The position numbers and the translations under genes are program-made. Below the pieces are notes generated by a model. The model did no database searches and was not told the DNA's origin. It saw nothing but the letters and a program-made list of their open reading frames with translations. Below are positions 7,322 through 33,542 of a stretch of DNA of 33,621 bases, one piece after another (within the stretch, counting starts at the first letter, position 1; the number at the start of each line of letters is the position of its first letter). Source of the stretch: Lachnospiraceae bacterium (lineage in GTDB: Bacteria > Bacillota > Clostridia > Lachnospirales > Lachnospiraceae); assembly GCA_015057205.1 (NCBI GenBank), contig SVEW01000003.1, positions 1 through 33,621 of the forward strand, read 5' to 3'.

Positions 7322-8524
7322 TCAATCCTTGCTAAATTCAACAAGTTCAAGTCCTTCATTTCTGTCAAGGGTCATCTTAATGCTCCACTCATGTGCAAAC
7401 AATAGCAGTGGATTGCCTTTTAAATCCTTAATCTTCTTCATATCTGACGTACCAATCAATTTATCCATATCCAAGGACTTATCTTTAATCCAGCGAATGT
7501 GTTCATATGGCAGATTCTCCATACGAATCTCCACACCATATTCGCTTTCCAGACGATACTTCAACACATCAAACTGAAGCACACCTACAACACCTACGAT
7601 AATTTCTTCCAAACCGGTGTTGAACTCCTGAAAAATCTGAATGGCACCTTCCTGGGCAATCTGGTTAATGCCCTTTACAAACTGCTTCCGCTTCATAGTA
7701 TCCACCTGACGCACACGGGCAAAATGCTCCGGCGCAAAAGTTGGAATACCTTCAAATGCAAACTTGTCCGGTGCTGTTGTCAGGGTATCACCAATGGAAA
7801 AAATACCCGGATCAAAGATACCGATAATATCACCGGCACAAGCCTCTTCTACCATCTTACGCTCAGAAGCCATCATCTGCTGTGGCTGAGAAAGCTTAAC
7901 TTTCTTACCGCCCTGCACATGAAATACATCCATACCGGCTTCAAACTTACCGGAAACAATACGCATAAACGCAATACGGTCACGATGTGCCTTATTCATG
8001 TTGGCCTGAATCTTAAATACAAAGGCAGAAAAATAATCCTCAAACGGAGTAATCTCTCCCTTATCCGATGTTCGGGCAAGTGGCGCATAAGTCATCTTTA
8101 AAAAGTGCTGTAAAAAGGTCTCCACACCAAAATTCGTAAGTGCTGAACCAAAGAACACCGGTGACAATTCACCTTTCGTTACCAGTTCCTGGTCAAATTC
8201 CGCGCCGGCACCATCGAGAAGTTCAATCTCCTCCAACAGATTCGCATAATTCTGTTGTCCGATACGATTCATGGCAGCCTCATCGTCTATGGAAAATTCT
8301 TCTTCGTTACCTTCCTTCGTACCTTTCTGGGTATCGGAAAAGGTCATAATCTTACGTGTATTTCGATCATACACACCCTGGAAATTCTTACCGGAACCGA
8401 TCGGCCAGTTAATCGGGCAGGTTGCAATACCAAGCTCATTCTCTATTTCATCAAGCAACGCGAAGGTATCATTAGCATCACGGTCCATCTTGTTAATAAA
8501 GGTAAAAATCGGAATATGACGCAT
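7322..8524 (-). CDS. prfC: peptide chain release factor 3, C-terminal part (split gene)
   Basis: [33 protein letters not shown]... through the RF3 C-terminus; colinear continuation of the 8524-8910 ORF in the -1 frame. Confidence 0.85.
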   Translation of the reverse strand: MRHIPIFTFINKMDRDANDTFALLDEIENELGIATCPINWPIGSGKNFQGVYDRNTRKIMTFSDTQKGTKEGNEEEFSIDDEAAMNRIGQQNYANLLEEIELLDGAGAEFDQELVTKGELSPVFFGSALTNFGVETFLQHFLKMTYAPLARTSDKGEITPFEDYFSAFVFKIQANMNKAHRDRIAFMRIVSGKFEAGMDVFHVQGGKKVKLSQPQQMMASERKMVEEACAGDIIGIFDPGIFSIGDTLTTAPDKFAFEGIPTFAPEHFARVRQVDTMKRKQFVKGINQIAQEGAIQIFQEFNTGLEEIIVGVVGVLQFDVLKYRLESEYGVEIRMENLPYEHIRWIKDKSLDMDKLIGTSDMKKIKDLKGNPLLLFAHEWSIKMTLDRNEGLELVEFSKD

Positions 8525-8910
8525 TACACAACTTTAAAGAGCTTACGTGTCTGCGCCTCAACACCCTTTGAACCGTCAATCACCATTACCGCAGAATCCG
8601 CCGCCATCAAGGTGCGGTAGGTATCCTCCGAGAAGTCCTGATGTCCCGGTGTATCCAAAATGTTAATGCAATATCCATCATAGTTAAACTGCAAAACAGA
8701 GGATGTAACAGAAATTCCTCTCTCTTTTTCAATTGCCATCCAGTCAGAAACAGCGTGTTTCGCGGTGGCCTTTCCTTTTACAGAGCCCGCCTGATTAATG
8801 GCTCCACCATATAGCAAAAATTTCTCCGTTAAGGTCGTCTTACCTGCATCCGGGTGGGAAATAATCGCAAAGGTTCGTCTTTTCTCTATTTCTTTCTTCA
8901 AATCTGCCAC
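8524..8910 (-). CDS. prfC: peptide chain release factor 3, N-terminal part (split gene)
   Basis: GTG start; [28 protein letters not shown]...[17 protein letters not shown]...TRKLFKVV-stop. Confidence 0.85.
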
Positions 8911-22081: not shown

Positions 22082-23023
22082 TTAATTAAAATATACCAGT
22101 TCGTCTTCTGGTTTTTCTGCCTCTTTGATTTCTTTTACATAAAGAACCGGCCCCTTGCCGCGATATTCTTTGGCAAATTCGGTCTTCATCTCTGCTGTTA
22201 CCCATATCCATGACTTGTGTGGAATTTCTTTGGATTTGTCGTATTTTGCTTTAAATCCGATAAACTGAATATCTTCAACACAACAGGTCATGGCAAAACG
22301 CCCCGGCACAAAGGTGCCTTTTTTCATTTTATCCGGGTTATACACAAGGGCAAGGAATTTCACCGTCTTGCCATCGTATTTCCGCGGATTCTCCTGTGCA
22401 TCGATAAACCAGATTCCATAATCCATATCCGTAATCTCAATGGTATCTTGCGTAATATCATACGGCAATGGTTCCGGTGTTTCATCGATGGTGCCATCCT
22501 TCTTCTCATAAACAATCTGTGCCCGACGGTTGTTGGTCTTTACCGCCGTACGGAATTTAATTTTCGGCGTATTCTCGTCACTGCGGTTAAAAATAACCAC
22601 ATCCGACAAAAACAACTGCTCCATCATCATGGCACGCATATTGGTCAGGTAGTTCTCAAACGTTGTAGAATCCACCGTAGTCAACACCTGCACCAGTTCA
22701 CAGCTTTCCGGCAATACTTCTTCTGCAAAATCTGCAACTTCCCAGGTTCCGTTATATTCGATAAAAATATTATCCGGCCAGTATTCCCGCACACACTTAT
22801 CAATAAACTCTTTATTGAACTCTTCTTTTTTCTCAACAAACACTATAGACGTGTTCATTTTCTCCAATTTGTCTTCGTCAAACTCCTCATCACCATCTTC
22901 GCAAACGATAATCAGGTTCTTTGAACCGATTCCAAACCCATTTTCCACCAGGGTTTCTTTAATCAGGGTAGTTTTTCCACTATCCATGAAACCGGTAAAC
23001 AGATATACACCAATTGTATCCAT
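22082..23023 (-). CDS. CobW-like GTPase fused to a DUF1980-like C-terminal domain
   Basis: Walker A GFMDSGKTT; C-terminus GKTVKFLALVYNPDKMKKGTFVPGRFAMTCCVEDIQFIGFKA...SWIWVTAEM...GPVLYVKEIKEAEKPEDELVYFN. Confidence 0.75.
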   Translation of the reverse strand: MDTIGVYLFTGFMDSGKTTLIKETLVENGFGIGSKNLIIVCEDGDEEFDEDKLEKMNTSIVFVEKKEEFNKEFIDKCVREYWPDNIFIEYNGTWEVADFAEEVLPESCELVQVLTTVDSTTFENYLTNMRAMMMEQLFLSDVVIFNRSDENTPKIKFRTAVKTNNRRAQIVYEKKDGTIDETPEPLPYDITQDTIEITDMDYGIWFIDAQENPRKYDGKTVKFLALVYNPDKMKKGTFVPGRFAMTCCVEDIQFIGFKAKYDKSKEIPHKSWIWVTAEMKTEFAKEYRGKGPVLYVKEIKEAEKPEDELVYFN

Positions 23024-23032
23024 GTTGCTCTC

Positions 23033-24211
23033 CTACATTCCAAATAAGGTCTTCATTTCCTCTTCTTCTACGTTGGTTCCAATGACCACCAGACGACCGG
23101 TGTAATCCGGTGCGCCGTCACGCAATTCATAATCACCCGGAACCATATTAAAATAAATCCACTTGCCGTCCGTTGCCGGAATCATTCCTTTTGCACGTAA
23201 AATTGTACTTTCGTATTTTTCAGAATGACACAAGGTATCCAGCGCCTTCTCAACGGTTGCACGGTCAAATTTATGTGGTGTCTCAATACCCCAGCTAATA
23301 AACACATCATCTGCATGATGATGTCCATCTTCGTGATGATGTCCACAAGAACAGTTGCCATGCTCATCGTAATGATGCTCGTGATGGTCGTGGTCATGAT
23401 GATGCTCGTGCTCATGCTCGTGATGCTCATGCTCGTGCTCACGATGATGCTCGTGCTCGTGGTCATGATGATGCTCGTGCTCGTGCTCATGCTCGTGGTC
23501 GTGGTCATGTCCACAGCAACAATGTCCGTCTTCATCGTGATGATGATGTTCATGATCGTGATGATGCTCATGATGTTCATGTTCTACCTCATGAAGAATC
23601 TCATCTTTCAGAGAAGCCTTCTTCTCTACAGCACTTAAAATCACGTCTCCACTTAATTCATCCCATGGCGTAGTAATAATCGCCGCCTTCGGGTTCTTTT
23701 CCTGTAATACGCTTACACATTCGGTTAACTTTGCATCGTCCATATCCTGTGTACGGCTCAATACAATCGTTGTAGCATATTCAACCTGATTATTGAAAAA
23801 CTCACCGAATGCCTTCATCTGTTTTAATGCCTTCTTACCATTTACAACCGTAACAAGACCGTTTAATTCTACATCCAACGTCTTAGCTACGTCTGCAACA
23901 CTTGCCATTACATCCGATAATTTACCTACTCCGGATGGCTCTACCAAAATACGGTCCGGATGAAATTTGTCAACTACTTCTCCCATATTCTTGGTGAAGT
24001 CGCCAACCAAAGAACAGCAGATACAACCGGAGTTCATTTCCGTAACCGTAATACCGGAATCCTTTAAAAATCCTCCATCAATACCTACTTCTCCATATTC
24101 ATTTTCAATCAAAACAACCTTTTCACCCTTGAAAACCTCTTCCAACAGCTTCTTAATTAACGTTGTCTTTCCGGCTCCCAAAAATCCGGAAATAATATCA
24201 ATCTTTGTCAT
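23033..24211 (-). CDS. CobW/COG0523 family GTP-binding metallochaperone with long His-rich insert
   Basis: GFLGAGKTTLIKKLLEE, MNSGCICCSL (CxCC), EPSGVGKLSDV; about 100-aa His/Glu/Asp-rich stretch; C-terminal CobW_C-like region. Confidence 0.92.
   Translation of the reverse strand: MTKIDIISGFLGAGKTTLIKKLLEEVFKGEKVVLIENEYGEVGIDGGFLKDSGITVTEMNSGCICCSLVGDFTKNMGEVVDKFHPDRILVEPSGVGKLSDVMASVADVAKTLDVELNGLVTVVNGKKALKQMKAFGEFFNNQVEYATTIVLSRTQDMDDAKLTECVSVLQEKNPKAAIITTPWDELSGDVILSAVEKKASLKDEILHEVEHEHHEHHHDHEHHHHDEDGHCCCGHDHDHEHEHEHEHHHDHEHEHHREHEHEHHEHEHEHHHDHDHHEHHYDEHGNCSCGHHHEDGHHHADDVFISWGIETPHKFDRATVEKALDTLCHSEKYESTILRAKGMIPATDGKWIYFNMVPGDYELRDGAPDYTGRLVVIGTNVEEEEMKTLFGM
23310..23590. repeat. low-complexity DNA encoding the His-rich insert
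   Basis: Iterated gatgatgctcgtgctcatgctcgtggtc-type motifs, coding HEHEHHHDHEHE on the minus strand. Confidence 0.85.
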
Positions 24212-30899: not shown

Positions 30900-32114
30900 T
30901 TACAACAGATTCAATGGTTCTAAACTTCTTTCCAAAATTCCATTCATATACGCAATTGCTACGCCGTAATTGGTCATTGGTACGCTCTGCCGTTTTGCCT
31001 CTGCCAACCGATATTTCATCTCTTTTTCATTTAGCATACAGCCACCACAATGGATAATCAAATCAAATTGTGTTAGATTTCTTTCAAAGCCGGTACCGCT
31101 TGTAAAGGTCAACTCCAACTGTTTCCCTGTAAATTTCTTAAGAAGTTTGGGGAGCTTCTCCGTTCCGATGTCGCCACACTGCCGATGATGGGTACAACCT
31201 TCTGAAATCAAAACCTTTGCACCATCCTGTAACCCGCCTATAGCGTATGCCCCCTGCACCTGCTGTTCAAGGTTCCCTTTTAATCTTGCAAATAGAATTG
31301 AAAAAGAAGTAAGCGGCACCGCATGCGGCGTCATTTCATCCACTATTTTAAATGCCTGACTATCCGTAACCACCATTTTAGGCGGTTCTTTTAGACTCGC
31401 GAGGGTTTGCGGTAATGTGGTTTCCTTTGTCACCATACAGATTGCATTTCCATCCAAAATATCCCGTATCGTCTGCTGTTGCGGCAGAATCATGCGTCCT
31501 TTTGGTGCCGCCGCATCAATCGGTGTCACCAGCACCACCACATCTTCCGGTTTTAACAAATCTTTAATCAGGTCACGCTCCACATTTTCTTTCATAGCAT
31601 TGGCAATGTAGTTTTTCAGTTCCTCCACCCCTGATTTTGTCAAAGCACTTACAAATAGGTAGGGATAATCCTTTGCCCAGGAAGCCTGCAAAATCTTTTT
31701 TTCCTGGGATTCTGCCATCGCATCCATTTTATTAATGGCAACAACAAAGGGCAGTTTTTTATCCTTTAATTGCTTTAAAAGACGTTCCTGCGCCTCTGAT
31801 AGCTGTGCCTCCTGTCCATCTAATACCACAATGGCAAAATCAATTTTTCGAAGAACTTCAAAGCTTTTTTCGATGCGCTTTTGACCTAGTTCTCCTTCGT
31901 CATCCAACCCCGGCGTATCTATAAATACCACCGGTCCAATGGGTAAAAGTTCCATCGCTTTGGTTACCGGATCGGTGGTGGTTCCCTTTACATCAGATAC
32001 CACCGCCAACTCCTGTCCGGTTATGGCATTTAATAAACTTGATTTTCCTGTATTTCGGTTGCCAAAAAAGCCGATGTGCAACCGGTTTGCACTTGGTGTT
32101 TCATTTAAACCCAT
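30900..32114 (-). CDS. hydF: [FeFe] hydrogenase H-cluster maturation GTPase HydF
   Basis: GFFGNRNTGKSSLLNAITGQ, DTPGLDDEGELG, CTHHRQCGDIGTEKLP, IIHCGGCMLN. Confidence 0.96.
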   Translation of the reverse strand: MGLNETPSANRLHIGFFGNRNTGKSSLLNAITGQELAVVSDVKGTTTDPVTKAMELLPIGPVVFIDTPGLDDEGELGQKRIEKSFEVLRKIDFAIVVLDGQEAQLSEAQERLLKQLKDKKLPFVVAINKMDAMAESQEKKILQASWAKDYPYLFVSALTKSGVEELKNYIANAMKENVERDLIKDLLKPEDVVVLVTPIDAAAPKGRMILPQQQTIRDILDGNAICMVTKETTLPQTLASLKEPPKMVVTDSQAFKIVDEMTPHAVPLTSFSILFARLKGNLEQQVQGAYAIGGLQDGAKVLISEGCTHHRQCGDIGTEKLPKLLKKFTGKQLELTFTSGTGFERNLTQFDLIIHCGGCMLNEKEMKYRLAEAKRQSVPMTNYGVAIAYMNGILERSLEPLNLL

Positions 32115-32123
32115 CTTTTCCTC

Positions 32124-33542
32124 CTAGAAACGGAAATCACGTTCCCCTGCATCAATACTGTTAATGTATTTCTTTGCAGTCTCTTTAACCTTTGGATTCG
32201 GGATTTTCTCAAGTTCTGCTTCAATCATCTTCTTACCTGCTGCTTTTACTTTCTCGGAAGCATAATCATCCAAATACTCGTTTAATGTCATAAGAGCATT
32301 CGGGTGGCAGCAGTTCTGAATCTGTCCGGATTTCAAAAGGGACATAAACCGATCACCGGTTCTTCCTTCACGATAGCATGCCGTACAGAAAGATGGTACA
32401 TAACCCATGTCAATCAGCCATCCCACTACTTCATCCAGTGTCCGATTATCAGACACATCAAACTGTGCGGAATTCTCTTCTTCCGGCTCTTCTTCCACAT
32501 AACCACCTACGCTTGTTCTAGAACCACCGCTAATCTGAGAAACACCTAATTCTAAAACTTTTTCTCTGGTTTCTTTGCTTTCTCTGGTGGAAATAATCAT
32601 ACCGGTATACGGTACAGCAACTCGGATGCAGGCAACAATTTTTTCAAACATTTCATCGGTAATACCATTATCGAATACATCCGGGTCAATATCATCCGCT
32701 CGACGAAGTCTTGGTACGGAAATGGTATGTGGTCCGCATCCTTTGGCCTGCTCTAAATGTTCCGCATGCATCAATAAGCCGGCAAAATCATAACGATACA
32801 AGTTTAAGCCAAACAATACACCAATTCCTACATCATCGATTCCACCATCCATCGCTCTGTCCATGGCTTCTGTATGATAACTGTAATCAGACTTTGGTCC
32901 TGTTGGATGAAGTTTCTCATACTGTTCCTTGTTGTATGTCTCCTGGAATAAAATATAGGTACCAATTCCTGCTTCTTTCAATTTTCTATAATTCTCCACT
33001 GTTGTGGCTGCAATGTTCACATTTACACGGCGAATAGCACCATTTTTGTGTTTAATACTATAAATGGTCTTGATACTCTCTAAAATATACTCAAGCGGGT
33101 TATTTACAGGATCCTCTCCTGCCTCTAATGCAAGACGTTTATGACCCATATCCTGCAAAGCAATCACCTCTTTGCGGATTTCTTCCTGTGTCAGTTTCTT
33201 TCTTGCAATATGCTTGTTTTTCAAGTGATACGGACAATATTCGCATCCGTTTACGCAATAGTTAGACAGATACAGTGGCGCAAACATTACAATTCTATTT
33301 CCGTAAAAATCTAATTTAATCTGCTTTGCCAACGCATAGATTTCCTGATTTTTCTCTTCAATATCACAATCAAGAAGCACCATAGCCTCTCTATGGGATA
33401 GGCCTTTTCTTAATTTTGCTTTTTCAATAATTTCGGTAATTAATTTCTCGTTATGCTTATTCTCCTCTGCATACTTCAGTGTTTCGAGGATTTCCTCGTG
33501 GTTAATAAATTCCTCTGCCTTGGATGACATCACATTATACAT
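32124..33542 (-). CDS. hydG: [FeFe] hydrogenase H-cluster radical SAM maturase HydG
   Basis: CVNGCEYCPYHLKNKHIARKKL; C-terminal SFCTACYREGRTGDRFMSLLKSGQIQNCCHPNALMTL. Confidence 0.96.
   Translation of the reverse strand: MYNVMSSKAEEFINHEEILETLKYAEENKHNEKLITEIIEKAKLRKGLSHREAMVLLDCDIEEKNQEIYALAKQIKLDFYGNRIVMFAPLYLSNYCVNGCEYCPYHLKNKHIARKKLTQEEIRKEVIALQDMGHKRLALEAGEDPVNNPLEYILESIKTIYSIKHKNGAIRRVNVNIAATTVENYRKLKEAGIGTYILFQETYNKEQYEKLHPTGPKSDYSYHTEAMDRAMDGGIDDVGIGVLFGLNLYRYDFAGLLMHAEHLEQAKGCGPHTISVPRLRRADDIDPDVFDNGITDEMFEKIVACIRVAVPYTGMIISTRESKETREKVLELGVSQISGGSRTSVGGYVEEEPEEENSAQFDVSDNRTLDEVVGWLIDMGYVPSFCTACYREGRTGDRFMSLLKSGQIQNCCHPNALMTLNEYLDDYASEKVKAAGKKMIEAELEKIPNPKVKETAKKYINSIDAGERDFRF

Follow-up and report, generated by a model that had tools for sequence, protein, structure and literature searches.

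A CxCC-less CobW-type GTPase fused to the C-terminal domain of DUF1980 in Lachnospiraceae, and its constant pairing with a CxCC-bearing CobW protein

In the stretch of DNA analysed here, 33,621 nucleotides of a Lachnospiraceae contig (hereafter the window), one gene of this gut bacterium encodes a protein, named here Q, in which a CobW-type GTPase domain devoid of the CxCC motif is joined to the C-terminal domain of the DUF1980 proteins (DUF1980_C). The fusion is confirmed as real: 80 distinct fused homologues were collected, the architecture is widespread and old in its bacterial family, a second CobW-type gene (cobW1) constantly accompanies it, and both halves of the protein group, in separate trees, with genes of the same operons. 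Judged from these sequences, Q is most likely a soluble protein that works with cobW1 to handle zinc, or a metal like it, in a GTP-dependent manner.

The fused protein and its upstream partner

Q is read from an ATG in a single open frame (Table 1), and profile searches bear out the combination of a CobW-type GTPase with a DUF1980-like domain that a first-pass annotation of this DNA had proposed. PF02492 matches the N-terminal half with 44.5 bits (Pfam cut-off 20.7) and PF21537, DUF1980_C, the C-terminal half with 91.2 bits (cut-off 25.9), far above chance; TIGR03943 reaches 86.9 bits (E=1.2e-24), 1.9 bits below the NCBIfam equivalog cut-off of 88.8. Only the soluble half of DUF1980 is present: PF09323, which describes its membrane N-terminal half, does not match Q, and no transmembrane segment is predicted in Q or in any fused homologue. 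Similarly, Pfam gives no match in Q to CobW_C (PF07683), in whose place DUF1980_C stands.

Table 1. Coordinates of Q, of cobW1 and of their main motifs in the window
Feature	Position	Strand	Evidence
Q, GTPase2-DUF1980_C fusion protein	22082..23023	minus	313 aa; open frame, Pfam matches, 80 full-length homologues
CobW-type GTPase domain of Q, residues 6-169, CxCC-less	22517..23008	minus	PF02492, E=1.7e-11; model resembles HypB and YjiA
Walker A / P-loop GFMDSGKT of Q, residues 11-18	22970..22993	minus	G11, G16, K17 and T18 invariant in 80/80
Walker-B region motif E-Y-N-G of Q, residues 89-92	22748..22759	minus	E89, N91 and G92 invariant in 80/80; alignment
DUF1980_C domain of Q, residues 186-311, predicted OB-fold	22091..22468	minus	PF21537, E=6.1e-26; C-domain model pLDDT 90; best PDB matches OB-folds
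Cys247-Cys248 pair of Q	22280..22285	minus	invariant in 80/80 fused proteins
cobW1, G3E protein with CxCC, His-rich linker and CobW_C	23033..24211	minus	PF02492, 7e-36; PF07683, 1.4e-9; in 59/59 genomes with GTPase2
CICC motif of cobW1, residues 63-66	24014..24025	minus	C63, C65 and C66 invariant in 15 aligned cobW1
His-rich linker of cobW1 (approximate limits)	23309..23596	minus	visible in translation

The P-loop GFMDSGKTT, pointed out in the first-pass annotation together with the lack of CxCC, still falls within the canonical GxxxxGK[ST], and CxCC is indeed missing, from Q as from all 80 homologues. In the alignment, E-Y-N-G occupies the site of E-P-S-G in CobW proteins. The guanine-specificity motif [NT]KxD is degenerate, reading NR-C/S-D/T in Q and SR[TS]x in cobW1 (S152 and R153 invariant in the 15 aligned sequences), and the nucleotide specificity of both proteins may be unusual. 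A CC motif of the R..CC..D type, like that of Q, also occurs in 61 of 76 membrane DUF1980 ORFs, and the Cys247-Cys248 pair is predicted to bind metal. The model of the whole protein (mean pLDDT 79.5) matches HypB and YjiA, and a sequence search for solved structures returned only weak YjiA matches. The C-terminal domain, modelled alone, finds OB-folds, Ten1, RPA and AspRS among them, with weak scores (best TM 0.53, E ~1e-3) and without an informative functional homologue; the two cysteines are located in the least certain stretch of this model.

cobW1 lies upstream of Q, 9 bp away. All cobW1 proteins with their N-terminus present carry CxCC (58 from fused and 15 from permease loci; in the nine that do not, the stretch is truncated or the ORF was called from a start within the gene), and those at fused loci have a median of 39 histidines. 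The GTPase half of Q had been called metallochaperone-like: it is a CobW-type G3E domain, but not of the metallochaperone type, being CxCC-less, and a tree that joins it to cobW1 is rejected (p-AU 0.001); it is cobW1, a separate gene upstream, that encodes the chaperone-like protein. The same test rejects the idea that Q arose by tandem duplication of the neighbouring CobW gene. Elsewhere on the minus strand of the window, a release-factor-3-like gene (prfC, 7322-8910) appears in two ORFs split at ~8524, possibly by a frameshift or an assembly error, and apparent HydF- and HydG-like [FeFe]-hydrogenase maturation genes occupy 30900-33542.

Distribution, relatives and probable origin

When 196 genomes of the order were searched with a profile built from the entire fusion, full-length copies were recovered in 34 of the 35 sampled genomes of Q's own family, placed in the Lachnospiraceae by its close named relatives, as well as in three other families, and a sample drawn from the whole phylum extended this range to additional families and classes. 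The survey that the first-pass annotation had suggested thus describes an old, family-wide architecture and no oddity of one genome. In the named Oscillospiraceae strain Vescimonas fastidiosa MM35 the annotation of the pair goes no further than "CobW family GTP-binding protein" for one gene and "GTP-binding protein" for the other. Among the 196 genomes, cobW1 (>280 bits) occurs in 59, exactly the 59 with a CxCC-less GTPase of Q's type, hereafter GTPase2, in fused, permease-fused or free-standing form and in several families, a hand count uncorrected for shared ancestry that includes one broken fused copy; two further genomes have weaker CobW-like matches only and 135 have neither. The broken copy (genome G094, contig C2, ~67686-68620) is interrupted by an in-frame TAG and a shift. 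At 67 of the 80 fused loci, cobW1 precedes the fused gene in the same orientation, the median distance between the two being a few tens of bases, and several of the other loci are truncated stretches; some secondary fused paralogues have instead a YjiA-type COG0523 gene as partner, or no CobW neighbour. In near relatives a SudB/SudA-like pair often comes after Q, and beyond cobW1 no neighbour is generally conserved at fused loci, the flanks consisting of varied housekeeping genes.

Outside Q's family, GTPase2 either forms the N-terminal part of a fusion with an ArsP_1 permease or adjoins one, and the gene order is cobW1, then GTPase2/ArsP_1, then a membrane-anchored DUF1980 protein. These neighbourhoods support the earlier statement that DUF1980 proteins are usually permease partners. 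GTPase2::ArsP_1 fusions, with a total length of ~510-550 aa, were seen in many Clostridia (loci L130, L134, L135, L137, L138, L145, L147, L152, L165 and L166, and others). Two variants were observed among the permease and DUF1980 genes: an ArsP_1 permease, adjoining a DUF1980 gene, that is extended at its N-terminus by what resemble PKD repeats in sequence (L164, 3019-4821), and a membrane DUF1980 protein whose predicted membrane segments enclose a His-rich loop, GHDHDCGCGHDHDHEHGHEQ (L141, 5011-5868).

The GTPase half of Q belongs to this CxCC-less subfamily. In the GTPase tree, all 31 sampled fused proteins form one clade (support 98/90), sister to the permease-fused GTPases of L135 and L138 (100/98); in a separate tree of DUF1980_C, the fused domains group with the DUF1980 proteins of the same two operons (98/90), L135 lying among the fused sequences on a long, weakly supported branch. 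A topology in which all permease-linked GTPases stay together, separate from the fused proteins, narrowly escapes rejection (p-AU 0.064). No ArsP_1 permease was found beside the fused loci or elsewhere in the genome that carries Q, which is 77.6% complete, and many genomes of its family are likewise devoid of one.

The probable origin of Q is a zinc-linked membrane system from which the membrane parts disappeared. The ancestral operon would have had the order cobW1 - [GTPase2::ArsP_1] - [membrane DUF1980] and would have been tied to zinc uptake; since the permease and the membrane segments of DUF1980 are consecutive between GTPase2 and DUF1980_C, one in-frame deletion would remove both and join the GTPase to DUF1980_C, creating Q. 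That the permease was lost is the likely direction, not proven because of the p-AU of 0.064. In this change DUF1980_C probably moved from the outside of the cell to the cytoplasm, because the charge pattern of the membrane DUF1980 proteins with three segments, called by a crude hydropathy method, favours a C-terminal domain outside in 28 of 42 (against in 9, ties in 5).

Metal context and proposed role

The genes around the permease-linked relatives connect the system to zinc. Of the 15 GTPase2-permease loci, 9 have a Fur-family regulator within ~6 kb and 8 have a ZnuB-type permease, compared with 0 and 1, respectively, of 17 permease-DUF1980 loci that have no GTPase2; at L130 a single run comprises an ABC ATPase, a ZnuB-type permease, a Fur-family regulator, cobW1, GTPase2::ArsP_1 and DUF1980. 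In Bacillus anthracis Zur was bound by EMSA upstream of an ArsP_1 permease operon, with a probe set that also covers yciC (PMC6336718). The fused loci have a Fur-family gene in 2 of 65 and ZnuB in 0 of 65, and a search for Zur-like palindromes upstream of their cobW1 genes gave no shared operator; three related permease loci share an AATAATCCTAYGCATtATT-like site. The hint at metal handling in the first-pass annotation therefore holds for the wider family, through gene context and the published Zur binding, but not through zinc genes at the fused loci themselves, so that the zinc link of Q is one of descent and partnership. Furthermore, the metal need not be zinc, because the GTPase2 locus L147 is near a gene for a CbiM-type cobalt transporter. 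Two fused paralogues (L153, 5246-7775; L107, 4867-8084) were also observed in same-strand runs with Fur-family and YjiA-type COG0523 genes.

As the best explanation, and quite possibly the correct one, we propose an obligate metal-handling module of two GTPases, of which Q is the second, the one that lacks CxCC, and in which a cytoplasmic DUF1980_C, arisen by in-frame deletion, replaces the ArsP_1 permease. Here we infer complex formation, the identity of the metal, its hand-over and the client. In its GTP state, cobW1 would take up a divalent metal, Zn(II) or one like it, at CxCC, and its His-rich linker would serve as a metal reservoir; Q, the partner that has no metal site, would associate with cobW1 in an asymmetric two-GTPase unit; GTP hydrolysis would release the metal, and the OB-fold CC domain of Q would be the metal acceptor or a docking site for a client apo-protein. 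Against this stand the absence of ZnuB, the rarity of Fur and the lack of a shared palindromic operator at the fused loci, their housekeeping neighbours, the CbiM-type gene near L147, which does not compel zinc, the degenerate guanine-specificity motif of cobW1 and Q, the secondary fused paralogues without a CobW neighbour, and the unsettled descent from permease-fused forms (p-AU 0.064). A broader form of the proposal, which we hold to be doubtful, is that cobW1 and GTPase2 or Q form an obligate asymmetric complex that gates metal transfer, driving or controlling, in other Clostridia, an ArsP_1 permease with an extracellular DUF1980 subunit, and that in Lachnospiraceae this complex has become fully soluble, its membrane parts lost and DUF1980_C now cytoplasmic. 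If true, it would give a metal function to the uncharacterised YcgRQ / ScfAB / SMU.746-747 group.

Alternatively, Q could be a metal sensor or regulator, in which DUF1980_C would bind metal at the CC loop, switch the GTPase domain and so control the activity of cobW1. The invariant CC of the C-terminal domain, the constant pairing with cobW1, and a GTPase that lacks the CxCC metal site and keeps all P-loop residues are consistent with it, but sequence alone does not separate this unlikely alternative from the two-GTPase module. The same module might also serve iron, cobalt or nickel for a particular enzyme such as an iron-type alcohol dehydrogenase, genes for which are found near the secondary fused paralogues of L091 (4203-5507) and L102 (3792-4967), making this enzyme a possible client. 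The CbiM gene near one GTPase2 locus and the fused loci devoid of zinc-uptake context point the same way; however, these dehydrogenase neighbours occur at few loci, and the GTPase2-permease relatives are mainly accompanied by ZnuB and Fur-family genes, so we consider it distinctly unlikely. Very improbable is a role outside metal biology, in which the OB-fold would bind nucleic acid or protein and the pair would have a housekeeping function: the nucleic-acid-binding OB-folds among the best matches and the housekeeping surroundings agree with it, but those matches are weak and the fold generic, Cys247-Cys248 is invariant, and cobW1 retains both CxCC and the His-rich linker. Finally, an assembly chimera or frameshift artefact, suggested by a source genome in 202 contigs and 77.6% complete, is practically excluded because the same architecture and length recur in 80 independent loci of many genomes, including the annotated Vescimonas fastidiosa.

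Comparison with known systems

All the domains of Q are known; the architecture, the GTPase2 subfamily and its pairing with cobW1 are apparently undescribed, and an earlier description is possible. A search of mostly open-access literature on DUF1980, TIGR03943, YcgQ and COG0701/COG0523 returned no description of the Q fusion or of a GTPase::ArsP_1 protein, nor, within the same limits, of the CxCC-less GTPase2 subfamily or its constant cobW1 pairing. DUF1980 proteins include YcgQ of Bacillus subtilis, ScfB of Streptococcus pyogenes and SMU.747 of Streptococcus mutans, and together with their ArsP_1 partners (YcgRQ, ScfAB, SMU.746-747) they are uncharacterised in function but matter for streptococcal fitness (PMC5584981). 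The fusion, its constant CobW partner and the ZnuB- and Fur-linked relatives offer a concrete hypothesis for DUF1980, namely a part in GTP-dependent metal handling, with zinc or a similar metal as the cargo, and GTPase2 would be a GTPase subfamily, apparently not described before, through which a metallochaperone system is linked directly to a permease.

The TIGR03943/DUF1980 proteins share with Q the DUF1980_C domain and its CC motif, but they reside in the membrane, in most cases through three predicted transmembrane segments, and their genes adjoin that of an ArsP_1 permease, whereas Q is soluble, fused to a GTPase, has no permease nearby and scores just below the TIGR03943 cut-off. The BAS1632 operon of B. 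anthracis has an ArsP_1 permease with its own Zur boxes, studied by EMSA alongside yciC, a COG0523 gene, and neither GTPase2 nor a fusion is described there (PMC6336718). With the COG0523/CobW G3E GTPases (YjiA, YciC, ZigA and CobW), Q has in common the G3E fold, PF02492, Walker A and ExxG, but it lacks CxCC and CobW_C and clusters away from cobW1; CxCC is conserved in all COG0523 members according to Haas et al. (PMC2770081), and because it is absent in Q and in all its fused homologues, we do not file Q as a COG0523 metallochaperone. The nearest relatives of its GTPase half are the GTPase2::ArsP_1 fusions of other Clostridia, equally CxCC-less and preceded by the same cobW1, which differ in carrying the ArsP_1 permease where Q has DUF1980_C and in having DUF1980 as a separate membrane protein.
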